From Pseudorhodobacter wandonensis (GTDB lineage: Bacteria; Pseudomonadota; Alphaproteobacteria; Rhodobacterales; Rhodobacteraceae), in NCBI RefSeq assembly GCF_001202035.1, contig NZ_LGHT01000014.1, positions 1 through 32,912 on the forward strand: DNA of 32,912 nt, in the 5' to 3' direction. Each line of letters starts with the position of its first letter. Positions within the stretch are counted from its first letter, which is position 1. The translations under genes and the position numbers were made by a program. The notes under the pieces were generated by a model, which saw only the letters and a list, made by a program, of their open reading frames with translations, made no database searches and was not told the DNA's origin. This document shows positions 3,330-24,507 of this stretch, one piece after another.

Positions 3330-4457
3330 TCAACTTTTTTGGCCCTTGACGCGTCTGTAAACATACTGGGCAAATTCGAAATTGGGTCGTTCAAGATGCG
3401 AAAGATGGCCGGGCATGGCCGCATGCGAGCTTAGACCACGATACACTTTTTCAGTGCAACCCTTATCCTCGACATTCACATCGTCCAAAAGGGTCTTCAG
3501 TTGTGCGAAATGGGCTTGCGCGTCGGCGTCATCGACATAGTCGGGAGACATGCCGCCGCCAAACCCAATCCTGACTTGACCGACACCCTGAGGATGCAAC
3601 GTGAGGTACCAAAAATAACCAGGCGTCAAGGTGATAAGCAGGCTTGGATAGATCGCCAGAAGATAGGTCGTCCGCCTGCGTTCCCCCTCCAGACGGGTGT
3701 TGTTCGGATGTGCCAACGCAATCTTCAGCGAGTCGTTCTTCAGAATTGTGTGATAATTGAAAGCTGCTTCACCCGGCGGGCAGATCATCTCGTCGAGTTT
3801 GGACAGACCGCCGATCGTTCCCGAATGGCAGACGGGTAAGTGGTAGCTTTCCATGAAATTCTCGGCCAGAACCTTCCAATTGGTGTTCCAGACGTGGGTT
3901 TCGAAAAAGGTTTCAGTGTAGGCACCCATGTCGTAGTCACCGACAAGATCTTCAACCTTGGCAAGCTGGCCTGCTACCGGACCAGCCTCTGAGTTCAACG
4001 TGACAAAAACCCATCCGAGCCATTCTTCGCATCGAATCTCCGGCAACCGGTAGTCGTCTTTGCAAAACCCATCATTCCTGGTCATCGCCGGCGCGCCACG
4101 AAGTGACCCATCCAAGTTGTAAGTCCAAGCATGATAGGGGCAGACTATGCTCGACTTATTGCCCCGCCCTTCCAGCAAAGTCGACATGCGGTGACGGCAT
4201 ACGTTGGACATTGCCCTGAGCTGGCCTTCCTTGTTCCGCAAGACGATAATGGCCTGCCCCGCCAGTTCAACGGTCACATAGTCGCCCGGCTTGGACAGGG
4301 CACTCGCTCGCCCGACACAAAACCAATCTTGTGCAAAGATTTCACGCAGTTCATGTGCGAGAAAATCCTCTGATGTATAAACTGACGGCGGCATCGCGCG
4401 CGCCCTTTCAAAAGGCACCGATACATTTTGGCGGAGTTCTTCGACGGCATCTTTCAT
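3330..4457 (-). CDS. Rieske-type ring-hydroxylating/N-demethylating oxygenase alpha subunit
   Basis: This 375-residue protein has an N-terminal Rieske [2Fe-2S] domain (C87-x-H89 and C106-x2-H109; CRHRMS and CPYHAW) and a C-terminal catalytic domain with the mononuclear iron site (NFMESYHLPVCH: H206, H211, bridging acidic residue E203). The type resembles the choline-monooxygenase, glycine-betaine and stachydrine demethylase branch of Rieske oxygenases, which hydroxylate N-methyl groups so that formaldehyde is released. It has no reductase of its own and probably shares the one at 11438. It is the last gene of the minus-strand operon, 93 bases after the permease, with its own strong AGGAGAG ribosome-binding site. 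Family resemblance is firm; N-demethylation of a histidine derivative is inferred from the neighbours. Confidence 0.85.
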   Translation of the reverse strand: MKDAVEELRQNVSVPFERARAMPPSVYTSEDFLAHELREIFAQDWFCVGRASALSKPGDYVTVELAGQAIIVLRNKEGQLRAMSNVCRHRMSTLLEGRGNKSSIVCPYHAWTYNLDGSLRGAPAMTRNDGFCKDDYRLPEIRCEEWLGWVFVTLNSEAGPVAGQLAKVEDLVGDYDMGAYTETFFETHVWNTNWKVLAENFMESYHLPVCHSGTIGGLSKLDEMICPPGEAAFNYHTILKNDSLKIALAHPNNTRLEGERRRTTYLLAIYPSLLITLTPGYFWYLTLHPQGVGQVRIGFGGGMSPDYVDDADAQAHFAQLKTLLDDVNVEDKGCTEKVYRGLSSHAAMPGHLSHLERPNFEFAQYVYRRVKGQKS

Positions 4458-4550
4458 TATGCTCTCCTGTCTTGCGTCTTCGGACCGTGGCCCCGAAAGG
4501 CAGCTATCTTCGATGTGGTATGCTGAGGGGCGGCATTGAATTGCCCGGTC

Positions 4551-5270
4551 TCAGCTCGCTTGTGGGATAGCGACTGGTCGCGTTTGCGGTGCTGGCCCGG
4601 TGTGGCGCATCAATCGGCGTTCGACCAGCCGGATCACGCCTATCAAGACCAGATTCAGCGCCAAATAGAGCACCCCTGCGATGGCGAATACTTCGAAAAT
4701 CGCAAATGTCTGGCTCATCAGGCGCTTGGCGTAGCCGGTGATTTCCAGCACGGTGATGGTCGATGCAAGGCTTGTTCCCTTGACCATCAGCACAAGTTCA
4801 TTCCCATAGGCGGGCAGCGCCTGCCGGATGGCCAGTGGGAACTCGATGCGACGAAACCGCATGGCGCGCGACATGCCGCAAGCTTTGGCCGCCTCAGTCA
4901 GACCAGCGGGCACCGCAACAAGTCCGCCGCGCAAAATCTCGGATGTATAGGCTGCGGTGTTCAGCGCCAGTGCCAGCACCGCACAACGCGAACCTTCGCT
5001 GACAACCCACCACAGGGCCGGTACATCGTGAACGAATCTAATCTGCCCAAGACCGTAGTAAATCAGGAAGATCTGCACCAAAAGTGGCGTGCCCCGAAAC
5101 GCGATACTGTAGTAGCGCGCGAACCCAGACACCCAAGCCTTGTCTGACCCGCGCATGATCGCAAGACCAAGGCCAAGGTTGAACCCGATGGTGACGGAGA
5201 TGGCCGTCAGCGACAGGGTCATCCATAGACCTTTGAGCAGCACCGGCACGGCAAGCTGAATAAGTTCCAT
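4551..5270 (-). CDS. Polar amino-acid ABC transporter permease (HisM-like)
   Basis: This 239-residue integral membrane protein has about five hydrophobic segments and the cytoplasmic EAA loop (LTEAAKACGMSRAMRFRRIE) that docks on the ATPase. It belongs to the polar amino-acid uptake family (HisJQMP/GlnHPQ type). It starts three bases after the stop of the second permease, and the two should form the heterodimeric channel. With the binding protein (6058) and the ATPase domain fused to a hydrolase (6941), it completes one importer. Substrate is inferred only: the surrounding enzymes suggest a histidine-like compound. Confidence 0.9.
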   Translation of the reverse strand: MELIQLAVPVLLKGLWMTLSLTAISVTIGFNLGLGLAIMRGSDKAWVSGFARYYSIAFRGTPLLVQIFLIYYGLGQIRFVHDVPALWWVVSEGSRCAVLALALNTAAYTSEILRGGLVAVPAGLTEAAKACGMSRAMRFRRIEFPLAIRQALPAYGNELVLMVKGTSLASTITVLEITGYAKRLMSQTFAIFEVFAIAGVLYLALNLVLIGVIRLVERRLMRHTGPAPQTRPVAIPQAS

Positions 5271-5273
5271 GGT

Positions 5274-5984
5274 TCAGGCCCCTTTCCGCGGTGACAAAAC
5301 GGCTTCGACCTTATTGAAGCCAACTTGGCTGATCAGCGTGATCATCAGGTAGACCAAAGCGGCAATTGTATAGAAAATCAGGGGATTATGGGTTGATCCC
5401 GCGCCTATGAAGGCGGTCCGCATCAGCTCTTGCAGGCCCACCACCGACACCAATGCCGTGTCCTTGATCGTAGTTTGCCAAACGTTGTTGATGCCCGGGA
5501 AGGCAATGCGCAGCATCTGTGGGGCGATGATACGCGCGAATATCCGGCGGCTTGGAAGGCCAAGTGCCACGGCCGCCTCGATATGCCCTTTCGGGATCGC
5601 GGCAAGCGCACCACGGATAACTTCGGTCGAATAGGCGCCCGAAATGGCGCTGATCGCGGCCACGGTGATGAAAAACGCGTAGCCCGCATTGGCTAGTTCA
5701 GCGAAGCCGAAGACGGTGGCAATTTTGGTGACGAATTCGACTGATCCGAAAAACAGCAGGTAGATGATCAAAAGTTCCGGCACACCGCGGATGACCGATG
5801 TATAAAGATCGACCAGGTGCGACAGCCCGAACACCGCGCGCCATTTGATCAGGCCGCAGATCGTCCCGATGATCAGCCCAAAGATCATGCTGGCCACACC
5901 GACCCCGATGGTGACGGCTGCACCACGCAGGATCGCACCGATCCAGCCACCCTCCCAGACCTGCAACAAACCGAATTCCATCAT
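5274..5984 (-). CDS. Polar amino-acid ABC transporter permease (HisQ-like)
   Basis: This 236-residue membrane protein carries the permease EAA motif (HIEAAVALGLPSRRIFARII) and about five transmembrane helices. It pairs with the next permease gene to form the translocation channel of a HisQM-type importer. It lies downstream of the binding-protein gene, from which it is separated by 73 bases containing a strong hairpin. That spacing is common where the binding protein must be made in excess over the membrane parts. The start at 5984 opens MMEFGLLQ; the second Met is equally possible. Confidence 0.9.
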   Translation of the reverse strand: MMEFGLLQVWEGGWIGAILRGAAVTIGVGVASMIFGLIIGTICGLIKWRAVFGLSHLVDLYTSVIRGVPELLIIYLLFFGSVEFVTKIATVFGFAELANAGYAFFITVAAISAISGAYSTEVIRGALAAIPKGHIEAAVALGLPSRRIFARIIAPQMLRIAFPGINNVWQTTIKDTALVSVVGLQELMRTAFIGAGSTHNPLIFYTIAALVYLMITLISQVGFNKVEAVLSPRKGA

Positions 5985-6057: not shown

Positions 6058-6852
6058 TTATTGGCAGGGGCGCGAGATATCCATGTTGAACCATTTCTCG
6101 CTGGACGCTTTCATCGAGCCATCCGCGATCAACTCGCAAAGCGCGGTGTCGATTTTCGCTTTCAGGTCTGTGTCGTCCTGACGAATGCCGACGCCCACGC
6201 CTTCGCCCAAAGTCGCATCGAAGGTGGAGATGATGTTCACATCGACAAACTGGAAGTTTGCGCCTTCGGGCTTGTCGAGGAAGCTTTGCAGTGCCGAGAC
6301 ATCGGCAAAGCCCGCATCCACGCGGCCGTTAGCAAGGTCGATCTGCATTTCATCCAACGTGGCGTAGGATTTCAGCGTTGCAGTCGGGGCCAGCTTTTCC
6401 ATGAAATGGGCATGGGTGGTGCCAGCCTGCACGCCAACCGAATGGCCATCAAGTGCGGCCAGTAGCGCCGGGATCTCGGTGATGCCAGCAAGGTCGGAAT
6501 CCTTGGCGACGACAACCTTGTTTGCCAGTTCAGCATAACCGATCGAGAAGTTGATTTCTTTCTTGCGGTCGGCAGTGATCGACATGCCAGAGATGATGAT
6601 GTCGAACTGTTTGGCCTGCAATGCCGGGATCAGGCCGTCAAATGCCTGAACCACAAACACGCATTCCATGGCCAGCTTAGTGCACAACATGTTGCCCACG
6701 TCGGCGTCAAATCCGGTGACCGCTCCATTGGCGTCGGCCATGCTCCACGGGGGATAGGCGCCTTCGGTGCCGATCTTCAGCTGGCCTTCGGCCTGCGCCC
6801 CAGAGGCTGCCCCAGCGAGCAGCGCGATGAGCGAAAGAACTTTCAGTTTCAT
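6058..6852 (-). CDS. Periplasmic amino-acid-binding protein (HisJ/ArgT-like)
   Basis: This 264-residue protein has a 22-residue signal peptide (MKLKVLSLIALLAGAASGAQA) and a bacterial extracellular solute-binding family 3 fold. The start of the mature protein (LKIGTEGAYPPWS), the segment GFDADVGNMLC and FDIIISGMSIT with the following Arg are typical for polar amino acids, where the Arg binds the ligand carboxylate. The ATG at 6852 has an AAGGAGA ribosome-binding site; the longer open frame upstream is not part of the protein. The family-3 type argues for a ligand with an alpha-amino-acid head rather than a betaine. The ligand itself is not known; a methylated histidine or its dipeptide is my inference from the operon. 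Confidence 0.9.
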   Translation of the reverse strand: MKLKVLSLIALLAGAASGAQAEGQLKIGTEGAYPPWSMADANGAVTGFDADVGNMLCTKLAMECVFVVQAFDGLIPALQAKQFDIIISGMSITADRKKEINFSIGYAELANKVVVAKDSDLAGITEIPALLAALDGHSVGVQAGTTHAHFMEKLAPTATLKSYATLDEMQIDLANGRVDAGFADVSALQSFLDKPEGANFQFVDVNIISTFDATLGEGVGVGIRQDDTDLKAKIDTALCELIADGSMKASSEKWFNMDISRPCQ

Positions 6853-6940: not shown

Positions 6941-8893
6941 TCAGAACGTCCGGGCCAGGAACTGGCGCAAACGCTCGGATTTCGGTTGGCCGAACAGATC
7001 GGCAGGCGTGCCTTCTTCCTCAACGCGACCTTGGTGCAGGAACAAAACCTTGTGGCTCACCTCGCGCGCGAACTGCATCTCATGCGTCACAAGGATCATG
7101 GTGTTGCCTTCCTCGGCGAGTTGGCGGATGACGCGCAGCACCTCGCCCACCAATTCAGGGTCAAGCGCCGAGGTGGGTTCATCAAACAGCATCACTTTCG
7201 GGCGCATCGCCAGCGTCCGCGCAATGGCGGCGCGTTGTTGCTGGCCACCCGAAAGCTGGCCCGGATAATGCGCTTGCTTTTCGGACAAGCCGACCTTTTT
7301 GAGCAGGGCATGCGCATGCTCCACCGCATCGGCGCGCGCCTCTTTCAGCACATGGATCGGCGCCTCAATGATGTTTTCCAACACCGTCATGTGCGGCCAA
7401 AGATTGAAGTTCTGGAACACCATCCCGACCCGCGCGCGGATGTGTTCGATCTGACGCGGATCGGCGGCTGTCGTGCCGCCCTTGGCGTGCGGCTTCATCC
7501 GCACCAGTTCGCCGTCGATCACGACCCGGCCAGAGTTTGGCTGTTCCAGCAGGTTGATGCAGCGCAGCATAGTGCTTTTGCCCGACCCCGATGATCCGAT
7601 CATCGATACCACTTGGCCCGGACAGGCCGTCAGGTTCACACCCTTCAGAACCTCCAACTGGCCAAAGGATTTATGCAGATCAACCACTTCGACTGCGGGG
7701 GTGCCCTTGGGGGCAACCTCCACCTTGGCTGCACGTACTGCCGCAGAACCGGGTTTTGCTTCGACCTTTTTCAGGGCCGTCAAGGCCGTATCAAAATGAC
7801 GAAGGCTGGTCGAAAGGCAAATCTGTTGCCAACTGGCGTCCTGCGGAATGAAGCCGTGCGCGAGGTCGGTCTTGATGCGCTGGCCACGCTCTGACTCGGG
7901 CTTGCCGTAAAGATGCAGCCAGTTGTCATCCACAACACGTCGCTGCATCTCGGCGCTGCTCAGCGTGCCACATTCCATCACCAAAGGCAGTACGCGCGCC
8001 TGGCCCATCGCGGCGCGCACAAAGGCCGAGATATAACCAGTGGCCGTGGCCGCAATGCCGGTGTTTGTCGTCGCAGCGGCACCCGTGATCACCGGCACCA
8101 TCGCGGGGCCGAACATCTCGGCCCCCCAGGCAAGGCCCACATGATCCACCGGGCTGACCGACAACAGTGCCGGATAGCCGTAAGGCCCGGCGCCCGTGTG
8201 CAGGTCAAACACAATGACTTGCCCGGCCTTTTGACCAAATTCTTCCAGCACGGCCGTCAGCACGCGGTTTGACCAAACCGGGGCGTTACCGCCATAGAAC
8301 AGGCCATCGGCAAAGGCGTATTGCCCAGCTTCGATGATCAAGGACACTGCCGTCTGACCCTTGGCTTTGGTTAATTCCGCCAAGGCCTCATCCGCCGCGA
8401 TCCGCTCCGGCCCATCCCATGCTGGCACAACCAAGGCCGGATGCAGATCTTCGTAGGCGGGGTTTTCGGGCGGCTTTGCGGTCCAATCAATGAAGTTGCG
8501 GTTCAAATCGACGTTGTCTTCGTTCACCCGGCGCGACCATGCCGTGCCCCAGGGGTTGATCAGATGGATCATCAAAACCGCAGTGTCGTCCGGCAGCGCC
8601 CAATTGGCCTTTTGCCCCAGCCATGCCGTTTGGCAAGCAGAGCCATAGGCTCCTTCCACCCCGTGCGTGCCGGAAATCATCACCATCAGTTTCGGTGCAT
8701 CCGCCTTCCCGATCAGCGCCACATCAGTGGCGATCGGCTTGCCATCGGGCCCGTGCAGCGGGTGGATGTGCTCGGAAAGTGCCGCCCCTGCCGCCCGGGC
8801 GGCTGTCAGGAAACGCTGACGCATCGTTGCGTAGTCCAACGCGAACGGCAGGCTGGTGTCGGCGGATTGCGTCAGGTCGCGCGGCTGCATCAT
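6941..8893 (-). CDS. Fusion: M14-like (DUF2817) amidohydrolase + HisP-type ABC ATPase
   Basis: One uninterrupted 650-codon frame joins two proteins normally encoded apart. Residues about 1-375 are an M14/DUF2817 zinc hydrolase: GTHGVEG (H77, E80), NVDLNRNF (127-134), FDLHTG (H232) and VMECGT (E307) match zinc ligands, substrate Asn/Arg and catalytic Glu. A linker rich in Ala, Lys and Pro (about 376-398) leads to residues 399-650, a complete polar amino-acid ABC ATPase: Walker A GSSGSGKS (433-440), Q-loop Gln494, LSGGQQQR (547-554), Walker B VMLFDEP (567-573), His604. M14-like enzymes of this branch cleave peptide or acyl-amide bonds, so the protein may energise import and split an amide (for example a methylhistidine dipeptide or N-acyl derivative). 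It starts four bases inside the FAD-oxidase gene. No second ATPase gene exists in the operon. Confidence 0.9.
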
Positions 8894-10299
8894 TGGAATT
8901 TCTCGCGAGCTAAGGGCTGAGACGGCAGAACTTTGCCGGGATTGAGGGTCTGGTCGGGGTCAAGCGCCTGCTTGATGCGCATCATCGTGGCGAACTTCAC
9001 CGGGTCAGATGTGGCGACCAAGGCGGCTATGCGTTTGGTCCCGACCCCGTGTTCGGCAGAAAATGATCCGCCAAGGGCACGCAGGTTTGCGTAAAGCACA
9101 TGCTCTACTGCGCTGGACATGGCGTCATCCAGCGGACCGGTGCGGTTCAGAACGATATGAAGATTGCCGTCGGCCAGATGCCCAAAGACATAGGGAACCA
9201 GATCGGCGTCGATCCGGGCCAGACCGCTTTTCACATGATCAACATAGGCCCCGATTTCGGACAGCGGCACCGAGACATCATAGGACGGCGCCGCCGCATG
9301 GGCGCGGTACAACTGATCGGTATCCTCGCGCAGCCGCCACAAATCGGCCTCTTGCCGTTTGGACGCAGGGATGATGCCGGTGGCAGTTGGGTGGCGGTCA
9401 AGGATCTTGCCAAAGATCTGCTCGATACCCTCGTTCAGATTGGCTTCATTGGCGCCGCCCAGCATCAACAACAGACAGACCGGCTGATCCAGTGGAAAGC
9501 TTGGTTCCGACCAGCCCTGCGCCTGAGCGGTCAGTTGAATATAAGACTGCCAAAGCCCTTCAGCCGCGCGCAAATGCCCAGCATCGGAGCGCAACGCGAG
9601 GTTGATTGCCTCCAACGTCGCAGCCACCGATGGCAGGCCCAGCATCACCGTGGCGGTGCATTGCGGTAGCGGCTCCAACTTGATCACCACCCGCGTAACG
9701 ATGCCAAGCGTGCCTTCCGCGCCGATGAACAGGTGCTTCAGATCATAGCCCGCCGTATTTTTCACCACGCGGGTCATGTCGGAATAGATGGTCCCATCGG
9801 GCAAAACCGCCTCCAGCCCCAACACGCGATGCCGCATCACCCCATAGCGGTGCGCCATGATGCCGCCCGCGTTGGTCGACACCATGCCGCCGATGGTAGC
9901 GGTGCCCCGTGCCGCGAGGTCGATTCCGGGTTCCAGTCCATGCGCGATTGCGGCACTCTGCAAGGCCTCCAGCGCCACGCCCGCCTGCACGACGGCCACG
10001 CACTCTTCGGGGTATATCGCCTCAATCAACGCCATCCGCGTCATTGCCAGCACGATCTGGCCGGGATGAGACTGGCAACCGCCGACCAAACCGGTATGAC
10101 CGCCTTGCGCCACGATGCTGACGCCATGTACCCGGGCAATGGCCACGACAGCGGCCACCTCGGCGGTGGATGCGGGCAGGACCAAAAGCTCGGCTCCGTG
10201 ATCAGGGCCAGCATTATTGCGCACATGGCCAGCGCCAACGGCGGCGACCAAGGCTTGCTGCAAGCCAGTCGGCTCTGGGGTTGCTGCCAGAGCCTTCAT
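8890..10299 (-). CDS. FAD-linked 2-hydroxyacid dehydrogenase (GlcD/D-LDH type)
   Basis: This is a 469-residue flavoprotein. The PCMH-type FAD-binding domain includes [27 protein letters not shown] and [10 protein letters not shown]. The C-terminal FAD-oxidase domain has the [10 protein letters not shown] metal/substrate motif and [10 protein letters not shown]. The family includes glycolate oxidase subunit GlcD, D-lactate dehydrogenase and D-2-hydroxyglutarate dehydrogenase, all of which convert a D-2-hydroxyacid to a 2-oxoacid. It overlaps both neighbours by four bases (aminotransferase and fusion gene), so it is co-translated. Beside a HisC-like aminotransferase, the tempting substrate is an imidazole-lactate that becomes imidazole-pyruvate and then the amino acid; this is inference. 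Confidence 0.85.
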
Positions 10300-11438
10300 C
10301 CCGCCACCTGCCTTTTCAGCGAGGCGATCAGCCGATCATTGTCGGCAGGCTTGCCGATAGTGGCGCGCAGCCATGTCTCATATCCCGCCTCGCGCCATGG
10401 CTTGACGATGATGCCGTCTTGCAGAAGTGCCGCCGCCACAGTGGAACTGTCGCGCCCGGTGTCAAAGAACAGGAAATTGGTTTGCGACGGAGCAGCGTTC
10501 AGCCCCATTGCGGCCAAGGCAAGCGCAACACGGTCCCGTTCGGAACGGATGCGCGCAACCGAGGCCTTCATCCAGGCATCATCTTCAAGGGCCGCCAACG
10601 CGGCGAGTTGTGCGGCCCCATTCACGTTGAACGGAGTCTTGGCCGAGGCGATCACCCGCGCAATTTCAGGGTCTGAACATACCGCATAGCCGACGCGCAA
10701 CCCGGCCAGGCCGTAGGCTTTGGAAAAGGTCCGCAACACGACAAAAGCGATGCCACTGTCACGAAGCACCTCGATCCCGTCGGGCGCGTCCGCGTCGGCG
10801 AATTCGAAATAAGCCTCGTCCAGCACGAACAGGGTGCCCGGACGAACCGTCGCGATCAGGCGCTCCAAGGCGGCGCGATCCAGCGCAGGCCCAACCGGGT
10901 TCCAGGGCGAAGACAGAAACACCACGCGCGGCCCGGCGGCAATTGCCGCCTCCAGTGCCACCAGATCAAAACCTGCCGCTGGCGTCATCGGCACTTTCAC
11001 AACCGTTGCCCCTGCGGCCAAGGGTTCGATCTCGTGCAGGCCAAAGCTTGGCACCACGGTCACGACCTGCGTGCCAGCTACCAGAACGCCGCGCGAAATG
11101 GCGGCAATCATTTCCTCGGAGCCGTTGCCAACGACAATCACGCCTGCATCAACCCCGAGCCGCTTTGCCAAAGCTTCGCGCAGCGCGGTGCAGGCCGGAT
11201 CGGCATAGCGCCAAGGCTCAAAACCACCACCGGCCAACGCGGCCAGAACGGCGGGCGAACAGCCATCGGGGTTTTCATTGCTGGCCAACCGCGCCAGATC
11301 GTCATGCCCGCTCAACGCCCGGGCGCGGGCCAAGGACATTCCGGCGTTGTAAGGCGGAAGGGCGGCCACATGCGGATTGACCAACAGTGCCGCAGCCGCG
11401 CTACCAAGGTTTCGTGCGGTTTCGGGTGCAGTAGTCAT
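10296..11438 (-). CDS. HisC-like class I/II PLP aminotransferase
   Basis: This is a 380-residue fold-type-I aminotransferase from the ATG at 11438, which overlaps the stop of the reductase gene (ATGA). Motifs, numbered from that start: SPWNPVG (N180), DEAYFEF (D207, Y210), the Schiff-base lysine in TFSKAYGLAGLRVGY (K240) with the following Arg248, and the C-terminal WLRATIG carboxylate-binding Arg. It is closest in type to histidinol-phosphate aminotransferases, which bind an imidazole side chain. A biosynthetic hisC role is unlikely inside a catabolic operon. It may interconvert a (methyl)histidine with the matching imidazole-pyruvate. No upstream extension is needed: an in-frame start at 11480 lies inside the preceding gene. 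Confidence 0.85.
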   Translation of the reverse strand: MTTAPETARNLGSAAAALLVNPHVAALPPYNAGMSLARARALSGHDDLARLASNENPDGCSPAVLAALAGGGFEPWRYADPACTALREALAKRLGVDAGVIVVGNGSEEMIAAISRGVLVAGTQVVTVVPSFGLHEIEPLAAGATVVKVPMTPAAGFDLVALEAAIAAGPRVVFLSSPWNPVGPALDRAALERLIATVRPGTLFVLDEAYFEFADADAPDGIEVLRDSGIAFVVLRTFSKAYGLAGLRVGYAVCSDPEIARVIASAKTPFNVNGAAQLAALAALEDDAWMKASVARIRSERDRVALALAAMGLNAAPSQTNFLFFDTGRDSSTVAAALLQDGIIVKPWREAGYETWLRATIGKPADNDRLIASLKRQVAG

Positions 11439-13590: not shown

Positions 13591-13605
13591 GATGTGCTCC
13601 TAGAA

Positions 13606-13621
13606 TTATGTGTAGACATAT
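13606..13621. promoter_or_regulatory. Palindromic operator upstream of the Rieske operon
   Basis: TTATGTGTAGACATAT contains the inverted repeat TATGT-N4-ACATA (13607-13620). Read on the minus strand it is followed four bases later by the AGGAG ribosome-binding site of the Rieske gene. Fifteen of its bases recur exactly, in the opposite orientation, in front of hutF (21792-21806). The TGT-N4-ACA core suits a GntR/HutC-type dimer. HutC binding is inferred; the divergent LysR protein is the alternative. Confidence 0.7.
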
Positions 13622-14664: not shown

Positions 14665-15225
14665 TCAGGCGCGGTGCTGAACGGTCCAGGTTGCGATATA
14701 GTCCATCAAGCCAGTGTTTAGGCAATCAGAAGGCTCCAGCCCGATTGCCTTGAGTTGGCCGCGAATGGCGTCCATTTGCGACGGATCAACGCCTGCTTCA
14801 ATCACAGATGACACAAAAGCCGCAAAGCCGGGTTGTGCCCAACCCTTTTCCTCGAACCGCTCCGGATGGATGAAATCCAGACCCTGGAACGGGTGCGCGC
14901 GGGTAACAGGGCCATACATGTGAACGCCGCAATCCTTGCAAGCATGGCGCTGGATCAAAGCAGCCGGATCGACGACGGCAAGCTTGTCACCGTTTTCCAG
15001 CACCGTCACCTTGTCGTGCGGCGCAACTGCCACGACAGAGAAGATGGCTCCTTCCGGTTTCCAGCACTTGGTGCAGCCGCAAGCGTGGTTGTGGGCAATT
15101 TGGCCCTCAACCCGCACGCGCACGGGCTTGTCGGTGCAGGCACAAACAAGCGTGCCGCCGGTGAAATCCGGTGACGTCGCGGCGATGCCGTTGTCCAGTG
15201 CCGGGTGCAGTTTCGGTTTGGTCAT
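14665..15225 (-). CDS. gfa: Glutathione-dependent formaldehyde-activating enzyme (Gfa)
   Basis: This is a 186-residue Gfa/CENP-V-fold zinc protein. Its cysteine pattern ([36 protein letters not shown]) matches S-(hydroxymethyl)glutathione synthase, which speeds condensation of formaldehyde with glutathione in the cytoplasm. It has a GGGAGG ribosome-binding site, lies 60 bases after frmA and is the last gene of the hut operon. Ordinary histidine breakdown makes no formaldehyde, so its presence here is best explained by formaldehyde released by the neighbouring Rieske demethylases. Confidence 0.92.
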
Positions 15226-16492: not shown

Positions 16493-18175
16493 TCAGTTGC
16501 CCAGAATGGTCGGCAGCCGAAGGCCTTGCTCTTTGGCGCAGTCAATTGCCGTCTCATACCCCGCATCAGCATGGCGCCAGACGCCCGAGGCCGGATCGTT
16601 CCACAACACCCGCTCTAAACGCTTGGCGGCATCATCGGTGCCGTCGGCCACAATGACCACGCCAGAATGCTGCGAAAAGCCCATGCCAACGCCGCCGCCG
16701 TGGTGGATTGATACCCAAGTTGCCCCCGACGCCGTGTTGACCAGCGCGTTCAGTAGTGGCCAGTCCGATACCGTATCCGAGCCATCCTTCATCGCCTCGG
16801 TTTCGCGGTTGGGCGAGGCGACCGAGCCGGAATCGAGGTGGTCACGGCCAATCACGATTGGGGCTTTCAACTCGCCCGACTTGACCATCTCGTTGAACAT
16901 CAGGCCCGCGCGATGCCGATCCCCCAGCCCGATCCAGCAGATGCGGGCGGGCAGGCCCTGAAACGCGATGCGGTCGGCGGCCATGTCCAGCCAACGGTGC
17001 AAGTGTTCATTCTCCGGGAACAGTTTCTTCATCGCGGCATCGGTTTTGTAGATATCCTCGGGGTCGCCAGACAGCGCCACCCAGCGGAACGGGCCGATGC
17101 CTTTGCAAAACAAAGGCCGGATATAGGCAGGCACAAAGCCGGGGAAGGCAAAGGCGTTCTCCAACCCTTCTTCCTGTGCGACCTGCCGGATGTTGTTGCC
17201 ATAATCCAGCGTGGGAACCCCGGCATTCCAGAAATCCACCATGGCCGCCACATGGGTGCGCATGGACGCACGAGCGGCCTTTTCGACCGCTTTCGGATCA
17301 GTTTCTTGCTTGGCACGCCACTCGGCAACACTCCAGCCTTGCGGCAGATAGCCGTGCAGCGGGTCATGGGCCGATGTCTGATCTGTGACGATATCGGGGC
17401 GCGCGCCGCCCGCTTTCATGCGGGCCACCAGTTCGGGGAACACATCCGCGGCGTTGCCCAGCAGGCCTACCGACTTTGCTTCGCCCTTGGCGGTCCATTC
17501 GGCAATCATCGCCAGCGCTTCGTCCAACGTCTTGGCCTTGGCATCGACATAGCGGGTGCGCAGGCGGAAATCGATCCGCGTCTCGTCGCATTCCACAGCC
17601 AGACAGCAGGCCCCTGCCATCACCGCCGCCAAGGGCTGCGCCCCGCCCATGCCGCCAAGGCCCCCTGTCAGGATCCATTTGCCCTTGAGCGACCCGCCAT
17701 AGTGCTGACGACCGGCTTCGGCAAAGGTCTCGTAGGTGCCCTGCACAATGCCTTGGGTGCCGATGTAAATCCATGACCCGGCGGTCATCTGGCCATACAT
17801 CATCAGGCCCTTCTTATCGAGCTCGTTGAAATGGTCCCAGGTCGCCCAATGCGGCACGAGGTTCGAGTTGGCGATCAAAACGCGCGGAGCGTCCTTGTGG
17901 GTACGCACCACGGCAACCGGACGGCCGGATTGCACCAGCAGGGTTTCATCATCGTTCAGGTCTTTCAGCGTGGCGACGATGCGGTCGAAATCGCCCCAGG
18001 ACCGCGCCGCGCGGCCAATGCCGCCGTAAACCACCAACTCATGTGGGTTCTCGGCAACATCAGGATGCAGGTTGTTCATCAACATCCGCATCGCGGCCTC
18101 GGTCTGCCAGGACTTGGCAGTGATCTCGGTGCCGGTGGCAGGATAGACATCGCGGCTATTCTTGCGATCAAGCAT
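16493..18175 (-). CDS. hutU: Urocanate hydratase (urocanase)
   Basis: This NAD-dependent enzyme of about 560 residues hydrates urocanate to 4-imidazolone-5-propanoate, step two of histidine breakdown. Family segments are obvious: [15 protein letters not shown] at the N-terminus, [45 protein letters not shown] and the [17 protein letters not shown] region. An ATG at 18190 overlaps the hutG stop, but the sequence AAGGAG lies just inside it. The second ATG at 18175 is spaced six bases behind that ribosome-binding site and gives [13 protein letters not shown] as in relatives, so I prefer it. Confidence 0.97.
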
Positions 18176-18186
18176 GGAAGGCTCCT

Positions 18187-18993
18187 TCATGGGGTAAGAG
18201 CGCCCGAACGGGCAAGGGTATCTAGGGATTGCAGGATTTTTGCCAGAACCGCACGCAACGGTGCGGCGATCTGGGGAGCGTAGGTCCAGGGTGCGGCCTC
18301 GGCGGCCAGATAGGCGCGTTGGACCAGTTCCATCTGGATGGCATGAACGCCTGTTTCGGGCTGTCCATAGTGGCGTGTCGTCCAGCCACCCTTGAAGCGG
18401 CCATTCAACACGGCATCAAACGGCTTGGCTGCAAAACAGGGGGCCGAGACTGCATCCGACACCTGCGCAGCACAGGTCTGCCCGTCATTGGTGCCAATCG
18501 AAAACACCGGCAGCAGCCCCGGAAACAGGAATGGGATGGTCGAGCGGATCGAGTGGCAATCATAGACGATGGCCACGCCATGCCGGGCTTTCACCCGCTC
18601 CACTTCGGCAGCCAATGCGGCGTGATAGGTAGCGTGGTATTGCGCCCGCCGTGCGGTAATCTCGTCAGCGCCGGGTTCCTGCCCCTCTGCCCAGATTTTC
18701 AGCCCGTCGAAATCTGTCGTCGGGCACAGGGAGGTTGTGTTGGCACCCGGATAGAGCGAAGCCCCCGCCGGATCACGGTTGGCGTCGATGACATAGCGGT
18801 GAAACGTAGCCTCGACCGTCGTGATACCGGGCAAAAGCTCATGATATAGCTGCGCAATATGCCAATCGGTGTCTGACAGCGCCCGCCCACGGTCATTCAA
18901 CCGGGCCATCAATGCGTCTGGCACATGGGTCCCCCCATGTGGCATGCCCAAAATGACTGGGCTGTCGCCTTGTTTGACAACGACCGGCATCAT
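18187..18993 (-). CDS. hutG: N-formylglutamate deformylase
   Basis: This is a 268-residue protein of the N-formylglutamate amidohydrolase family. It opens with [14 protein letters not shown] and [10 protein letters not shown] and contains YDCHSIRS with metal-binding residues. Together with HutF, which releases ammonia and leaves N-formylglutamate, it completes the two-step branch: HutG yields glutamate and formate. The start overlaps the hutH stop (ATGATG at 18993-18988; either Met is possible) and its own stop overlaps the next frame, so the genes are translationally coupled. An upstream in-frame start at 19023 lies within hutH and is not needed. Confidence 0.95.
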
Positions 18994-20528
18994 GCAGAAA
19001 GCTCGGGCAGTGCCAGACCACATGACTGCGCCAAGGCGCCGTTGCCAATCAGACGCGCGACGGCGGCCAGATCGGGGGCAAGGTAGCGATCATCGCCCAG
19101 CGTGGCCACGTCTTGCCGCAGGCGCGCGACGACGCTCTGCAACGGCGCGCTGGTGTGCAGCGGCGCGCGGAAGTCGATGCCTTGGGCGGCACACATCGCC
19201 TCGACGCCGAGGATCACGTTCAGGTTATGCACCATCTTGCCCAAACGCACGGCACCGTGGGCGGCCATGCTGACATGGTCCTCCTGATTGGCCGATGTCG
19301 GCGTGCTGTCGGTCACGCAAGGCATGGCGATATGCTTGTTTTCCGACATCAGCGCGGCGGTGGTCACCTCGGCGATCATCAGGCCGGAGTTCAGGCCAGG
19401 GCGCGGGGTCAGGAAGGCGGGCAGGTTGAACGACAGCACCGGGTCCACCATCAAGGCGACGCGGCGCTGCGCAATCGCGCCGATTTCAGCCAAAGCCAGC
19501 GCGATCATGTCGGCGGCAAAGCCCACGGGTTCAGCATGGAAATTACCGCCAGACACGATCAGCCCGGCCCCCGTCAAAACCAAGGGATTGTCAGTTGCGG
19601 CATTCGCCTCGATCTCCAGCGTATGGGCCGCTTGGCGCAACACGTCCATCGCGGCCCCGGTCACCTGCGGCTGACAGCGGATGCAGTATGGGTCCTGCAC
19701 GCGCGCATCACCCACCATGTGGCTCTCGCGGATTTCAGAACCGGCCAGCAGCGACCGCATGAAGCTTGCGGCCTCGATCTGTCCGGCATGGCCTCGCAGC
19801 GCATGAATTTCCGGCTGTAAGGGGGCGGTAGACCCCATTATAGCGTCGGTCGACAGCGCCGAAGTCACCAGCGCCGACTGCGCCGCATTCCAGCCGTCAA
19901 ACAGGCCCGCTAGCGCAAAGGCGGTGGAAAACTGTGTGCCGTTAATGAAGGCCAGTCCTTCCTTGGGCCCGAGCGGAATGGGGGTCAGGCCAGCCGCAGC
20001 CAAAGCCTCGGCACCCGGCATCACGCGGCCTTGATACTCCGCCTCGCCCTCGCCAATCAGAACGGCAGTCATATGGGACAAGGGGGCCAGGTCGCCCGAC
20101 GCCCCGACCGACCCTTGCGCAGGAATGACCGGCGTCACGCCACGGGCCAACATCGCCTCCAGCAGTTCCACAAACACCCAGCGCACGCCTGACGCGCCGC
20201 GCCCGAAGCTGAGCAGTTTCAGCACCATCAGCAACCGCGCATGGGCGCGCGGGATGGCATCGCCCACACCGCAGCAATGCGACAGGATCAGGTTGCGTTG
20301 CAGGGTAGCCGTGTCTTCGGGGGCGATGCGCAGGGACGCCAGTTTGCCAAAACCGGTGTTTACCCCGTAGACTGGAACGTCGCCAGCAGCAGCAGCACTG
20401 ATCGCAGCAGCGGCGGCCTCGATCCCCGGACGGGCAGCGCGGTCAAGCGTGACAGCCAGTTCCTCGCGGTAAATGCGCGCGAGTTGCGCCAAGGTGGTCT
20501 GGCCGGGAACAAGGATAAGAGCGGTCAA
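18990..20528 (-). CDS. hutH: Histidine ammonia-lyase
   Basis: This 512-residue enzyme makes urocanate and ammonia from L-histidine. The Ala143-Ser144-Gly145 triad in [14 protein letters not shown] cyclises into the MIO electrophile, and the YGVNTGFG segment near residue 54 is the conserved active-site loop. The start is TTG (20528), which overlaps the hutI stop (TTGA), and a GGAGG ribosome-binding site lies just upstream. It is the second gene of the hut operon. If the neighbouring demethylases yield free histidine, this is the entry point to the Hut pathway. Confidence 0.97.
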
Positions 20529-21736
20529 AGGACGCCTCCAATAATGCGTTGGGATAGGGGATTAAAGCCGATGCGGTAGGCAAGATCGGCCGGGTGGCCG
20601 CAGTTCCAGACGGCAATATCGGCGATCTGACCCGACGCCAGCGTGCCGCGATCCGTCAGACCAAGGGCGCGGGCGGCATGGGTGGTGGCCCCGGCCAAAG
20701 CCTCGGCCGGGGTCATGCGGAACAGGGTGCAGGCCATGTTCATCGCCAACAAAAGCGAGGTCATGGGGCTGGAACCGGGGTTCATATCGGTCGCCACGGC
20801 CATCGGCACGCCGTGTTTGCGCAGCAAATCAATCGGGGGCATTTGCGTTTCGCGCAGAGTATAAAACGCACCGGGCAGGATCACCGCCACGGTTCCAGCC
20901 GCGGCCATGGCGACCACGCCCGCCTCATCCAGATATTCCAGATGATCGGCAGACATCGCGCCATAGCGCGCAGCCAATGCCGCACCGCCCAAGTTAGAAA
21001 GCTGCTCGGCATGCAGCTTGACCGGCAGTCCAAGGCTCTGGGCCACCTGAAACACCCGTTCAATTTGGGCAGGCGAAAACGCGATGCCTTCGCAGAACCC
21101 ATCAACGGCATCGACCAGCCCTTGGGCATGGGCCGCGTGCAGTGCGGGAATGCAAACCGCGTCGATATAGGCGTCGGCCCGGCCTTTATACTCCGCAGGC
21201 ACGGCATGGGCGGCAAGATAGCTTGTCCGCACCAGAACGGGGCGCAACTGGCCAATCCGCCGCGCGGCACGCAGCATCCGTAGTTCGGTGTCCTGCTCCA
21301 ACCCGTAACCGGACTTGATCTCGATCACAGCCACGCCTTCTGCAATCATCGCATCGACATAGGGCAGCGCCGCCGCAACCAGATCGTCTTCATGAGCCTT
21401 GCGCGTCGCGGTCACGGTCGAGACGATCCCGCCCCCAGCCCGCGCAACCTCTTCGTAGCTTGCCCCTTGCAGCCGCATCTCGAATTCCGTCGCACGGCTG
21501 CCGCCATGGACGACATGGGTGTGGCAATCAATCAGCGCCGGAGTCACCAAACGTCCGCCCATGTCTCGCCGGGACAATCCGGCGTAGTCGCTTGGCAAAT
21601 TCGCCTGCGCCCCAACCCATGCGATCTTGCCCCCGATCAAAACAAGCGCGGCATCGTCAACCAAGCCGTAGGGATCAGCACCCGGTATCATCGTTGCCGC
21701 CCGAAGTGAGGTCAAAACGACAGAAGGATTCTGCAC
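20525..21736 (-). CDS. hutI: Imidazolonepropionase
   Basis: This is a 403-residue amidohydrolase. The metal-binding [10 protein letters not shown] motif (H72, H74) and the segments EIKSGYGLE and ADHLEYLDE are typical of imidazolonepropionase, which opens the ring to N-formimino-L-glutamate. The start is GTG at 21736 with GGAG upstream. It is the first gene of the minus-strand hut-frmA-gfa operon and is divergent from hutF. The 82-base gap between them carries the palindromic operator. Confidence 0.96.
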
Positions 21737-21818: not shown

Positions 21819-23177
21819 GTGATTTTTGCAGAACGCGCCTTGCTGCCCGACAGATGGGCCGAACAGGTCAGGATCACCGTGGCCGATGGGCATATCACCG
21901 GCGTGGCCACGGCAGCGGCCCCGCAGTCCGGCGATGCGCGAGTGTCGGCGCTGCTGCCCGCGCTTTCAAACCTGCACAGCCATGCGTTCCAACGCGCGAT
22001 GGCGGGCATGACCGAACACCGCATCGCGGGCCGTGACAGTTTCTGGACATGGCGCGATCTGATGTACCGTTTTCTAGACCGGTTGACGCCCGAGCAGATG
22101 GAGGCGATTGCCGCCCTTGTGTTCATGGAAATGCAAGAGGCAGGCTACGCCGCCGTTGGCGAATTCCACTATGTGCATCATCAACCGGGGGGTGGCACCT
22201 ATGCCGACATCGCAGAACTGTCGAACCGCATCTTCGCCGCCGCCCACCTGACGGGTATCGGCCTGACGCATCTGCCGGTTCTGTACACCTATGGCGGCGC
22301 GGGGCAGCAACCCCTTGCCGCCGGGCAGCTGCGGTTTGGCAATACGGTCGACGGTTTTGCAGACTTGCTGGAGGCCACTCGCACAGCCGCACGCGCTCTG
22401 CCCGCTGACACCCGCGTCGGGATTGCGCCGCATTCGCTGCGCGCCACCAACCCCGCCGATCTGGCCCGCGCTTTACCTTTGGCTGCGGGAAATCCCATTC
22501 ACATCCACGTCGCCGAACAGCCCAAGGAAGTGGCCGATATCTCGGCATGGCTTGGTGCGCGGCCTGTGGAATGGTTGCTGGCCAACACCCCCATCGGTGC
22601 GGATTGGTGTGCGATCCACGCCACCCACATGACAGCGCAAGAAACGGCAACACTGGCAAAAAGCGGTGCGGTTGCTGGGCTGTGTCCGATCACTGAGGCC
22701 AATCTTGGAGACGGGCCGTTCAACGGGCCGGGCTGGCTGGCAGCAGGCGGGGCGTTTGGGATCGGTTCCGACAGCAACGTCCGCATCAGCCTGACCGAGG
22801 AGCTGCGCACCTTGGAATACAGCCAGCGCCTGCGCGACATTGCCCGCAATGTCATGGTTGAAAAAGACGGCTCGGTCGGTCAGTGCCTTTATGTCGGTGC
22901 GGCACTGGGCGGGGCTCAGGCTTTGGGGCGCAAATCGGGGCAGATTGAGACTGGCTTTCTTGCCGATCTGACAGCGATCGACCTGTCTCACCCGACGCTT
23001 TGTGCGCTTGCCCCCGATCAAATTCTTGATGGTCTGGCCTTTGCGGCACCCGATACCGTGATCACAGACCTGTGGTCCGCGGGCAGGCATCAAGTGAAAG
23101 AGGGGCGTCACCTCCACCGCGACCAGATCATCACCACCTGGCGAAAAGCTGTGAAAGCCTTGATCGACGCGGTTTGA
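21819..23177 (+). CDS. hutF: Formimidoylglutamate deiminase
   Basis: This is a 452-residue amidohydrolase. The zinc motif NLHSHAFQRAMAG (H53, H55), the segments HIHVAEQPKEV and IHATHM, and FGIGSDSN are diagnostic of HutF, which deiminates N-formimino-glutamate to N-formylglutamate plus ammonia for HutG. It starts at a GTG (21819) behind AAGGAG. It is divergent from hutI and preceded by the palindromic operator, so it is likely under the same control as the rest of the pathway. Its presence shows that the five-step pathway ends in formate, not formamide. Confidence 0.96.
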   Translation: MIFAERALLPDRWAEQVRITVADGHITGVATAAAPQSGDARVSALLPALSNLHSHAFQRAMAGMTEHRIAGRDSFWTWRDLMYRFLDRLTPEQMEAIAALVFMEMQEAGYAAVGEFHYVHHQPGGGTYADIAELSNRIFAAAHLTGIGLTHLPVLYTYGGAGQQPLAAGQLRFGNTVDGFADLLEATRTAARALPADTRVGIAPHSLRATNPADLARALPLAAGNPIHIHVAEQPKEVADISAWLGARPVEWLLANTPIGADWCAIHATHMTAQETATLAKSGAVAGLCPITEANLGDGPFNGPGWLAAGGAFGIGSDSNVRISLTEELRTLEYSQRLRDIARNVMVEKDGSVGQCLYVGAALGGAQALGRKSGQIETGFLADLTAIDLSHPTLCALAPDQILDGLAFAAPDTVITDLWSAGRHQVKEGRHLHRDQIITTWRKAVKALIDAV

Positions 23178-23183
23178 CCCCTT

Positions 23184-23723
23184 TCAGGCCCGATCCCGCA
23201 GGGTAATCAGTATCCCGGTGGCATCAGCCTCAAGTGCTATGTCTGCGCCAGTTCCCAAGGCGAACGCCCCGACAGGCAACCCATCGCCGGAAACGGTGAC
23301 GGCGCCTGAAAGGCACAGGAACCCAGCGGTTCCAGCTTCACAGTTCACCGTGGCTGGCCCAAGAATCACGTTCACCGCAGCCTCGACGGCCGTCGCGTCA
23401 TAGATCAAATTCAAGTCATGGACTGGTCCACTGACCAACTTGGCATTTACGTCTTGGTCACCGGAGAAATGAACCGGCCGGTGCAGGCGCGCCTCCAGCA
23501 AGCCACCTACGGCAAGCAAATCAATCCCTGCACCATCAATCACCGTCAAAATCCGTGTCATGCCGGGAAACAGCGAAAACGGCCCGTCCGTACCGACCTC
23601 GGCAATGCTGATGCGCCATTGCCAATCCTCACCAACTGGGTGGCGCGCAACCTCACGTGTGATACCGCCCCCGTTTTTCCACGGGTTGGTCTGGAATTCA
23701 TCTGGGTTCATGATGCGAAACAT
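23184..23723 (-). CDS. hutD: HutD family protein
   Basis: This is a 179-residue cupin-like protein. The N-terminal MFRIMNPDEFQTNPWKNGGG then ITREVA is the HutD signature. HutD occurs in many hut operons and is thought to help limit or govern histidine use; its exact role is not settled. The ATG at 23723 has an AAGGA ribosome-binding site; the long frame upstream is antisense to hutC and is not coding. It is convergent with hutF (six bases between them) and divergent from hutC, with the third operator-like site in the gap. Confidence 0.9.
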   Translation of the reverse strand: MFRIMNPDEFQTNPWKNGGGITREVARHPVGEDWQWRISIAEVGTDGPFSLFPGMTRILTVIDGAGIDLLAVGGLLEARLHRPVHFSGDQDVNAKLVSGPVHDLNLIYDATAVEAAVNVILGPATVNCEAGTAGFLCLSGAVTVSGDGLPVGAFALGTGADIALEADATGILITLRDRA

Positions 23724-23739
23724 GGGACCAATCCTTGCC

Positions 23740-23755
23740 TTAAGCGTACACATAA
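23740..23755. promoter_or_regulatory. Degenerate operator copy between hutD and hutC
   Basis: TTAAGCGTACACATAA keeps the right arm (ACATAA) and 11 of the last 12 positions are close to the hutF site, but the left arm is changed. It lies three bases upstream of the hutD ribosome-binding site, the same placement as the other two copies, and 41 bases upstream of hutC. This suggests weaker control of hutD and autoregulation of hutC (inference). Confidence 0.5.
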
Positions 23756-23796
23756 CCTTATCAAGGGTTTCACACGGGGCCAAGAGGCAGACCTGA

Positions 23797-24507
23797 ATGG
23801 CGACAACACCGATCTTTGAGAAGACCACCTTCAGGGAGGTCATGGCAGAAATCCTGCACCGCATTACCGAAGGCCCCTGGGGCCCCGGAACCCTGCTTCC
23901 CGGCGAAGTGGAATTGGCGGAGGAGTTTAGGTGTTCGCGCACGACGATGAACCGCGCCCTGCGCGAAGTGTCAGAGCTTGGCTTTCTGGACCGAAAGCGC
24001 AAAGCCGGAACACGGGTTCGCATGGCACCGATCCGGCAAGCGCGCTTTGAGACGCCCATCGTGCGCGCGGAAGTCGAAAAGACCGGCGCGTCTTACCGTT
24101 ATGCGTTGGTTAGTCGCGAAATCCTTGTTGCGCCTGACTGGCTGCGGGCACGGATGAACCTTCAGGTTGGCAGCGAGGTGGTTCATCTGGTATGCTTGCA
24201 CTCTGCCAATGGCGAAGCCTTTCAGCTTGAGGACCGCTGGATTAACGGCGCGGCGCTGCCGCAAGCGTTACAGCAGGACTTTGCCGCGATCGGCCCGAAT
24301 GAGTGGCTAGTTGCGACGGTCCCGTTTTCCGAGGTGGAGATCAGCTTTTTGGCGGCTGCCGCTGATGCAATCACCGTTACGCACCTTGACCACAAACTTG
24401 GCGAACCGGTGTTCTGCGTCGAACGCGCGACGTGGTGGCAAAACGCTGCGATTACTCTTGTGACTCTAAGCCACCGGCGCGGCTATCGCATGACGACGCG
24501 CTATTGA
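23797..24507 (+). CDS. hutC: HutC, GntR-family histidine-utilisation repressor
   Basis: This 236-residue regulator has an N-terminal GntR winged helix (PWGPGTLLPGEVELAEEF then RCSRTTMNRALREV, recognition helix around residues 48-60). A C-terminal UTRA ligand domain includes the LQVGSEVVHLVCLHSANGEA and FQLEDRWING segments. HutC proteins repress hut genes and release DNA on binding urocanate. It stands at the end of the hut cluster and is divergent from hutD. The TGT-N4-ACA core of the three palindromes in this window fits the general GntR operator form, so I infer that HutC controls both the hut genes and the Rieske/transport operon. Confidence 0.93.
   Translation: MATTPIFEKTTFREVMAEILHRITEGPWGPGTLLPGEVELAEEFRCSRTTMNRALREVSELGFLDRKRKAGTRVRMAPIRQARFETPIVRAEVEKTGASYRYALVSREILVAPDWLRARMNLQVGSEVVHLVCLHSANGEAFQLEDRWINGAALPQALQQDFAAIGPNEWLVATVPFSEVEISFLAAAADAITVTHLDHKLGEPVFCVERATWWQNAAITLVTLSHRRGYRMTTRY

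Follow-up and report, generated by a model that had tools for sequence, protein, structure and literature searches.

What would a Rieske-type oxygenase, an amino-acid importer and a hydrolase be doing next to a complete set of genes for histidine utilization (hut)? The question is raised by a stretch of 32,912 nucleotides from Pseudorhodobacter wandonensis (contig NZ_LGHT01000014.1, hereafter the window), which is an entire contig (C14) of a 3.89-Mb genome whose closest named relatives are Gemmobacter. A conserved block and the hut set together occupy window positions 4551 to 24507, and a GbcA-like Rieske gene (3330 to 4457) lies beyond the edge. Read on the minus strand from 13590 to 4551, the block encodes a Van-type Rieske oxygenase, a reductase, a HisC-like aminotransferase, a GlcD-like oxidase, a fusion of a DUF2817 hydrolase with an importer ATPase, a binding protein and two permeases. 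Beyond a divergent LysR gene, gfa, frmA, hutU, hutG, hutH and hutI follow on the minus strand, and then hutF (+), hutD (−) and hutC (+). An earlier note on this DNA had proposed that the island imports a methylated histidine, demethylates it to histidine and detoxifies the formaldehyde; this central idea is partly supported, as it survives a fair linkage test while its details change. From the genes, their motifs, their conservation and their linkage we infer substrate, reaction, direction and regulation of a route that would take up a ring-methylated histidine compound, hydrolyze its amide bond, remove the N-methyl group and feed hut, a reading to which we assign a probability of about 0.5. 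What we predict, then, is a degradation route for methylated histidine carried by a movable gene block.

Linkage of the Van-type Rieske oxygenase to hut

The linkage of the Van-type Rieske gene to hut is real. Among the loci of 80 relatives (the best 80 of 425, with flanks of at most 10 kb), 17 have a hut enzyme (HutU, H, I, G or F, identity ≥45%) no more than 10 kb away. These 17 loci belong to Rhodobacterales, Rhizobiales, a Geminicoccaceae metagenome-assembled genome (MAG), Acidovorax, Rhodoferax, Pseudomonas taeanensis and MAGs labelled Marinimicrobia and Rhodospirillaceae, so that the linkage recurs across several lineages with differing gene orders. Some of the contigs end early, and missing neighbors there are not certain; clusters of neighboring genes were formed by similarity on hexamer-scored gene calls and may contain paralogues. 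A tree built from the window and its 80 relatives requires at least 10 changes of hut linkage, 6 of them forced by starred branches. With 12 additional, hand-chosen rows there are at least 15 changes and 8 forced ones, where two rows of locus L090 are labelled hut-linked despite a distance of 16 to 23 kb to hutU. The trees were built by a quick method with no bootstrap, and gains and losses are indistinguishable on them.

Within the order of the window (taken as Rhodobacterales), 69 of 292 genomes have a homologue at E ≤ 1e-60, at 76 places. In genomes that have hutU, 21 of the 54 places with ≥48% identity are within 15 kb of hutU, namely 12 of 23 at ≥56% identity (28 places in all) and 9 of 31 at 48 to 54% (34 in all), and at ≤45% identity the count is 0 of 5 (14 in all). 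Ten of the 21 close places are directly 3′ of hutU on the same strand, six of them at 20 to 23 bp and four at 120 to 159 bp. The GbcA-like Rieske family served as a control, with 134 places in 62 genomes (most of them the same as in the test set), of which 131 are in genomes with a listed hutU place; only 3 of the 131 are within 15 kb of hutU, and two of those three are in the window genome. The difference between 21/54 and 3/131 gives a Fisher p of ~2e-10, a value that ignores the relatedness of the genomes. Outside the order, two of three class-sample homologues with ≥53% identity are within 15 kb of hutU (in G042 and G213, not in G040). The linkage to hut that the earlier note had proposed to check in other genomes is borne out, and the outcome it had named as refuting, in which this strain alone has the Rieske operon beside hut, was searched for and not observed.

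It is imaginable that the operon serves an unrelated methylated aromatic compound and came to lie next to hut by chance on a mobile element; the island has mobile flanks, and most Rhizobiales loci have the operon with no hut nearby. With a linkage that recurs far above the in-genome control, at least 6 forced changes on the tree and a Rieske gene directly after hutU in 10 genomes, we regard chance as very unlikely.

A predicted demethylase with its reductase

In an alignment of 25 sequences, the Rieske ligands C47, H49, C66 and H69 and the metal ligands H158, H163 and D296 of the Van-type oxygenase are invariant or nearly so, the exception being locus L075, in which Phe replaces C66; the positions were assigned by what we take to be the family pattern. 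Rieske 2Fe-2S motif and 2-His-1-Asp iron site are thus both conserved, as in VanA-type enzymes. An AlphaFold2 model (25 sequences) reached a predicted local distance difference test (pLDDT) value of 85, and a Foldseek search with this model placed the dicamba monooxygenase DdmC and the guaiacol O-demethylase 7qwt on top, followed by the saxitoxin oxygenases SxtT and GxtA and then by NdmA/NdmB. Since the best fold matches are demethylating monooxygenases, a demethylating oxygenase is the natural reading of the model, with O- and N-demethylation indistinguishable by fold. The enzyme has domain layout, metal-ligand motifs and fold in common with the VanA/DdmC/guaiacol O-demethylase group and with NdmA/NdmB, but it is only ~30% identical to DdmC and 7qwt and ~20% identical to NdmA, and it belongs to a separate conserved clade that is hut-linked. 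A homologue of the reductase is found in 65 of the 80 relatives' loci and directly neighbors the Rieske gene in 62.

Genes for formaldehyde oxidation

FrmA and Gfa score above their model cut-offs, which identifies a pair for glutathione-dependent formaldehyde oxidation. FrmA or Gfa (at ≥55% identity) is found within 10 kb in 14/80 relatives' loci, and the placement varies: between hut and Rieske in Gemmobacter-like loci, after the permeases in Ensifer, on both sides in L024 and after GlcD in Acidovorax (L066). On the tree, this linkage changes at least 11 times, with 8 changes forced. The window genome has two FrmA copies above cut-off, the second on contig C32, and a single Gfa (E ≤ 1e-40), located in this island; indeed, both genomes with a 95 to 100% identical Rieske protein have their sole Gfa in this hut block. 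Gfa occurs in 9 of the 69 genomes of the order that have a Rieske homologue; in two of these, the window genome and G540, it lies in the Rieske block, and in the remaining seven it is on a different contig from the Rieske gene. By these numbers, linkage to Gfa does not characterize the family as a whole. The co-occurrence of frmA and gfa with the Rieske genes, which the earlier note had proposed to test, holds in part, being confined to the nearest clade and to some Rhizobiales and Burkholderiales. The gene order given by that note needs correction: gfa and frmA are collinear with hutU, and hutF and hutC lie on the strand opposite to the remaining hut genes.

The importer and its fused hydrolase

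The closest counterparts of the binding protein are the nopaline- (NocT), LAO- and histidine-binding (HisJ) proteins. It keeps Arg77 and Asp161 (LAO numbering), as do 52 of 52 cluster relatives (two of which belong to other importers) and all 4 plasmid cases; in the alignment, NocT has Ser at the position equivalent to Asp161. Arg77 presumably holds the α-carboxylate and Asp161 the α-ammonium group of the bound ligand. With an SBP_bac_3 protein, two permeases, a HisP-like ATPase and these two residues, the transporter is an importer of the LAO/HisJ type, and it shares subunit set and both residues with the HisPQMJ, LAO and NocT importers. Unlike LAO, it has its ATPase fused to DUF2817, and the main group of binding proteins has Glu for Asp at position 11 and Gly for Ser at position 70. 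Because Asp161 is kept, hercynine is judged unlikely as the imported compound, in agreement with the earlier note, which had considered it less likely given an amino-acid-type binding protein.

DUF2817 is present in 49/80 relatives' loci, fused to the ATPase in 45 and separate in 4. The gene inventory of the earlier note, including the position beside a complete hut set, is confirmed by domain and NCBIfam matches, except that its "amidohydrolase" and importer ATPase are one fused open reading frame (ORF) and not separate genes. Residues H77, E80, N131, R132, H232 and E307 of DUF2817 are kept in at least 49 of 50 sequences and match what we take to be the M14/AspA-AstE pattern (HxxE...H zinc ligands, Asn-Arg, catalytic Glu). 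Foldseek matches include AspA/AstE-like proteins, carboxypeptidases and the cyanophycin dipeptide hydrolase CphZ, with low TM-scores of 0.29 to 0.48 (query length, top 50), which back the fold class only. The hydrolase has the zinc-site residue pattern and the fold class in common with the AspA/AstE-type deacylases of family M14 and with CphZ, but it belongs to another Pfam family and is joined to an importer ATPase.

Some of the loci that lack DUF2817 have other amide hydrolases beside the Rieske gene: a creatininase-family protein (identified in L067, with its cluster in 4/80 loci, and also in L099), FmdA/AmdA (L063) and an ArgE-like deacylase (L095). Together with DUF2817, the amide hydrolases span four unrelated families. 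Furthermore, an Opp/Dpp-type importer is found in five loci (L007, L033, L048, L059 and L074; domains verified in L007 only). These hydrolases and importers suggest that the substrate comes as an amide or peptide. Both Asp161 and the hydrolase would be accommodated by an isopeptide whose α-amino end is free, or by uptake of methylhistidine in free form.

Two side observations concern these loci. A conserved family of ~365 amino acids is encoded near the Rieske gene at L067:8871-9968 and L099:3952-5046, and searches with its L067 member gave no match among Pfam, NCBIfam and PDB sequences at the thresholds applied. At L067:6726-7829, a gene for a protein similar to the desulfinase DszB, with no Pfam match, adjoins the importer that has the creatininase-family gene.

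A model for the degradation of methylated histidine

In our model, the polar amino-acid importer would take up an N-methylated histidine compound, most likely histidine methylated at the tau or pi position of the ring or an amide or isopeptide conjugate of it, and the M14-type DUF2817 hydrolase, joined to the importer ATPase, would split the amide bond of such a conjugate. The Van-type Rieske oxygenase and its reductase would then hydroxylate the N-methyl group, by which formaldehyde is released and histidine is left. Formaldehyde would be oxidized via glutathione by Gfa and FrmA, and the private hut copy of the island would convert histidine to glutamate; in a side branch, HisC and GlcD may convert imidazolelactate via imidazolepyruvate to histidine. 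All enzymes of the five-step Hut pathway with HutF and HutG (HutH, HutU, HutI, HutF and HutG) are present in the window above their curated NCBIfam cut-offs, which are also passed by HutC, FrmA and Gfa. The window is unlike a plain Hut pathway in that a front end of Rieske oxygenase, importer and hydrolase as well as frmA and gfa are attached to it.

Several observations weigh against this model. For 63/80 loci, some of them on short contigs, the flanking 10 kb showed no hut enzyme, and hut-only contexts such as L091 and L097 are without any gene labelled reductase. The closest solved relatives of the oxygenase by sequence and fold (7qwt and DdmC) remove O-methyl groups, and the saxitoxin hydroxylases, which rank below these two, rank above the N-demethylase NdmA. 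FrmA and Gfa are missing within 10 kb in 66/80 loci, and their linkage is absent from the clades of the window's order with 48 to 62% identity. Asp161 is also common among plain amino-acid importers, and it disfavors N-acylated ligands such as anserine, which leaves DUF2817 with no obvious target and makes anserine itself a disfavored import substrate. Finally, direct demethylation needs neither HisC nor GlcD.

Some of these points would also suit an oxygenase that does not demethylate its imidazole compound but hydroxylates imidazolelactate or a histidine conjugate, on the ring or on the side chain, with FrmA and Gfa as passengers. Hut linkage alone suits any imidazole compound, HisC and GlcD point to imidazolelactate, 66 of the 80 loci have neither FrmA nor Gfa within 10 kb, and the hydroxylases SxtT and GxtA are among the near folds. 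We nevertheless consider this alternative unlikely: the top folds are demethylating monooxygenases, FrmA and Gfa recur in several arrangements and take at least 11 changes on the tree, and HutH would hardly be expected to accept a ring-hydroxylated product.

HisC, GlcD and other imidazole compounds

The HisC-like cluster is present in 55/80 loci and the GlcD-like cluster in 45/80. With 281.4 bits, the aminotransferase is just over the cut-off of TIGR01141 (276.55) and, with 429.2 bits, under that of PRK05166 (540). The oxidase reaches 231.7 bits against a GlcD cut-off of 567.9 and is therefore not GlcD itself. A second type of binding protein is encoded near hut, HisC, HutC-like, GlcD or LldD-like genes; 8 of 8 such proteins (L025, L034, L047, L055, L066, L070, L078 and L079) retain Arg77 and carry Asn at position 161. 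Asn161 would suit a hydroxy acid such as imidazolelactate, and these proteins are possibly a family of imidazolelactate importers. These residues set two importers apart, one for amino acids with DUF2817 and Rieske oxygenase and one probably for imidazolelactate. Because HisC and GlcD pair with LldD-like, HutC-like and Asn161-importer genes, it is more likely that they form a branch from imidazolelactate via imidazolepyruvate to histidine; the earlier note had placed them in one operon with the Rieske oxygenases, and this branch is the better explanation for them.

Genes for a class III CoA-transferase and an acyl-CoA dehydrogenase lie in or near hut at L053:1392-3700, L030:627-2880 and L055:18860-20997, and also at L025:6619-8873, L090:12788-15131 and L094:11652-14008; the domains were verified in L053, and the remaining loci were assigned by similarity. 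This pair suggests a possible route from imidazolepropionate to urocanate.

Could the use of imidazolelactate or imidazolepropionate be the main role, with the Rieske module being secondary? The frequency of HisC and GlcD, the Asn161 in all eight of the hut- or HisC-linked importers and the CoA-transferase and acyl-CoA dehydrogenase in hut clusters would be in line with this, but the importer of the window itself keeps Asp161, and cassettes on Pseudomonas plasmids, which have no HisC or GlcD in the stretches examined, keep importer, DUF2817, Rieske oxygenase and reductase. We therefore think it improbable and retain demethylation as the predicted main role.

Mobility and the minimal cassette

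The island looks mobile or plasmid-borne. A VirB3-like gene is found on one side of the island, and a Tn3-type resolvase, a transposase N-terminal domain (DUF4158) and an IS3-type integrase are found on the other, the labels Tn3 and IS3 being those we presume from the domains. Among 72,556 plasmid records, 50 have a homologue at E ≤ 1e-100. Plasmids of Pseudomonas fragi (meat), P. bubulae (spinach wash) and P. migulae (biofilm reactor) carry genes for LysR, importer, DUF2817, Rieske oxygenase and reductase, and the minimal cassette of P. fragi NMC25 (L104) spans positions 1945 to 9832. Hut genes, like HisC and GlcD, were not seen in the plasmid stretches examined, judged for P. fragi and P. 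bubulae by an incomplete annotation. Dipeptides of methylhistidine are plentiful in meat. A homologue with 95% identity lies on plasmid p2 of Gemmobacter fulvus in a block of ~35 kb that also contains hut, frmA, gfa, two Van-type Rieske genes, a GbcA-like Rieske gene, HisC, GlcD, CoA-transferase and acyl-CoA dehydrogenase. Because of the plasmid cassettes and the mobile flanks, we conclude that the system moves and that its core consists of import, hydrolysis and oxygenation. Its product would have to be something that recipients already use, with which histidine is compatible.

Downstream of hut on G. fulvus p2 (L089:6756-14547) are genes for glutamate mutase, methylaspartate ammonia-lyase, a CoA-transferase-like protein, an HpcH/HpaI lyase and fumarase, probably a methylaspartate route of glutamate degradation.

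Tau- and pi-methylhistidine are made in large amounts (actin, anserine, balenine), and methylhistidines serve as markers of muscle turnover. A more far-reaching version of our model, which we put forward tentatively and at less than even odds, is that the island represents the first bacterial route for methylhistidine derived from protein or muscle. The import-coupled DUF2817 would free methylhistidine from a dipeptide or isopeptide, and the Rieske N-demethylase would yield histidine; the cassette would move on plasmids among Alpha-, Beta- and Gammaproteobacteria and dock onto hut as one arm of an imidazole hub (methylhistidine, imidazolelactate, imidazolepropionate). Among the matches listed in the literature searched, in a coverage that leaves out most subscription journals, no paper dealt with hut combined with Rieske oxygenase, importer, hydrolase, frmA and gfa, with a bacterial enzyme that demethylates methylhistidine, with Rieske oxygenases acting on histidine derivatives or with what DUF2817 does. 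If the model is true, this Rieske family would be a predictable and widespread histidine N-demethylase, DUF2817 would gain a function and hut would become a hub for modified imidazoles.

A second Rieske oxygenase at the edge of the island

The GbcA-like Rieske gene lies 93 bp past the last permease gene on the same strand. In BLASTN comparisons with five relatives (L003, L004, L005, L008 and L012), collinearity ends at window positions 4551 to 4592, short of this gene, and among the 80 relatives' loci only L048 (31% identity) and L074 (36%) have GbcA-like genes. The operon of the earlier note therefore stands from the Van-type Rieske gene through the permeases, which are collinear in relatives, and not with both Rieske genes as one conserved unit. 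A two-Rieske pathway as a conserved unit of this island is ruled out by the same limit of collinearity. The protein is a homologue of the betaine and carnitine monooxygenases GbcA and CntA, but with 148.4 bits against a cut-off of 670 it does not belong to GbcA proper, and its substrate probably differs from that of GbcA. Contig C36 encodes a paralogue with ~80 to 81% identity, grouped with RidA, DUF1028, GntR and LysR genes and separated by 6.5 kb from a second copy of hutU. In Paraburkholderia, a homologue with 60% identity lies ~7 kb from the Van-type Rieske gene beside a different importer, and locus L109 also has RidA, DUF1028 and ArgE-like genes. The edge gene is probably a separate module that was acquired separately; elsewhere, Van-type and GbcA-like Rieske genes recurrently occur as pairs, and a two-enzyme version is still conceivable in those genomes.

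This pairing bears on the question whether the substrate is methylated at the α-nitrogen (hercynine, mono- or dimethylhistidine) and demethylated by the two Rieske enzymes. GbcA-like genes, kin of a betaine demethylase, lie beside hut or the Van-type Rieske gene in G540, G042, G359, G415 and L108/L109, and in L094 one follows hutH at ~20 bp. However, the genes of G540, G042, G359 and G415 belong to another clade (33 to 37% identity), the GbcA-like gene of this island falls beyond the conserved block, and Asp161, which we take to be the partner of a primary ammonium group, is retained in the importer. An α-N-methylated substrate is accordingly quite improbable, and a ring-methylated one remains our preference.

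As a side observation, a gene for a PhyH-type dioxygenase is located between the binding protein and the LysR-Rieske pair of Paraburkholderia (L108:7060-7902).

Gene layout and neighboring genes

Coordinates are collected in Table 1. The ORF of the HisC-like protein overlaps the reductase gene at its start, and the true start is probably further in; that of the LysR gene is probably ~120 bp further in. A related LysR gene is found in 71/80 relatives' loci.

Table 1. Features of the window, with coordinates, strand and the matches on which the assignments rest
Feature	Position	Strand	Basis and remarks
Mobility-type flank genes	98-772; 25073-25729; 25629-27338; 27209-28273		By domain
GbcA-like Rieske oxygenase	3330..4457	−	PF00848 + PF00355; outside conserved block
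Permease, HisM/ArtM-like	4551..5270	−	PF00528; end of conserved block
Permease, HisQ/ArtQ-like	5274..5984	−	PF00528; NCBIfam ArtQ/HisQ below cut-off
Substrate-binding protein, LAO/HisJ/NocT type	6058..6852	−	PF00497; start at Met of MKLKVLSL
DUF2817 (~residues 1-385)::HisP-like ABC ATPase (~400-650) fusion, 650 aa	6941..8893	−	PF10994 + PF00005; one ORF
GlcD-like FAD oxidase, predicted 2-hydroxyacid (imidazolelactate) oxidase	8890..10299	−	PF01565 + PF02913
HisC-like aminotransferase, predicted imidazolepyruvate/histidine transaminase	10296..11480	−	PF00155
Reductase, FAD/NAD/2Fe-2S domains, GbcB/BenC-like	11438..12556	−	PF00970, PF00175, PF00111
Van-type Rieske oxygenase, 345 aa, predicted N-demethylase, system core	12553..13590	−	PF00355 + PF19112 VanA_C
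LysR regulator, GcvA-like	13594..14637	+	PF00126, PF03466; divergent from Van-type Rieske gene
Gfa, S-(hydroxymethyl)glutathione synthase	14665..15225	−	TIGR02820 306 bits, cut-off 235
FrmA, S-(hydroxymethyl)glutathione dehydrogenase	15286..16416	−	TIGR02818 588 bits, cut-off 544
HutU, urocanate hydratase	16493..18190	−	TIGR01228 957 bits; second copy on C36
HutG, N-formylglutamate deformylase	18187..19023	−	TIGR02017 350 bits; genome's only one above cut-off
HutH, histidine ammonia-lyase	18990..20528	−	TIGR01225 657 bits
HutI, imidazolonepropionase	20525..21736	−	TIGR01224 459 bits
HutF, formimidoylglutamate deiminase	21819..23177	+	TIGR02022 572 bits
HutD	23184..23790	−	PF05962 141 bits; ORF to 24059, Pfam match from ~23699, start uncertain
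HutC, histidine-utilization repressor	23797..24507	+	TIGR02018 253 bits, cut-off 220

The window genome has a second hut set on contig C36 (L087:6329-17644) with HutC, U, H, I and F, in which no HutG was seen. It adjoins a group of LysR, DUF1028, RidA, GbcA-like Rieske, GntR-FCD and YCII genes. Past the transposon, the window contains genes for a GntR-FCD regulator (30324-30971) and a flavin-reductase-like protein (31100-31759).

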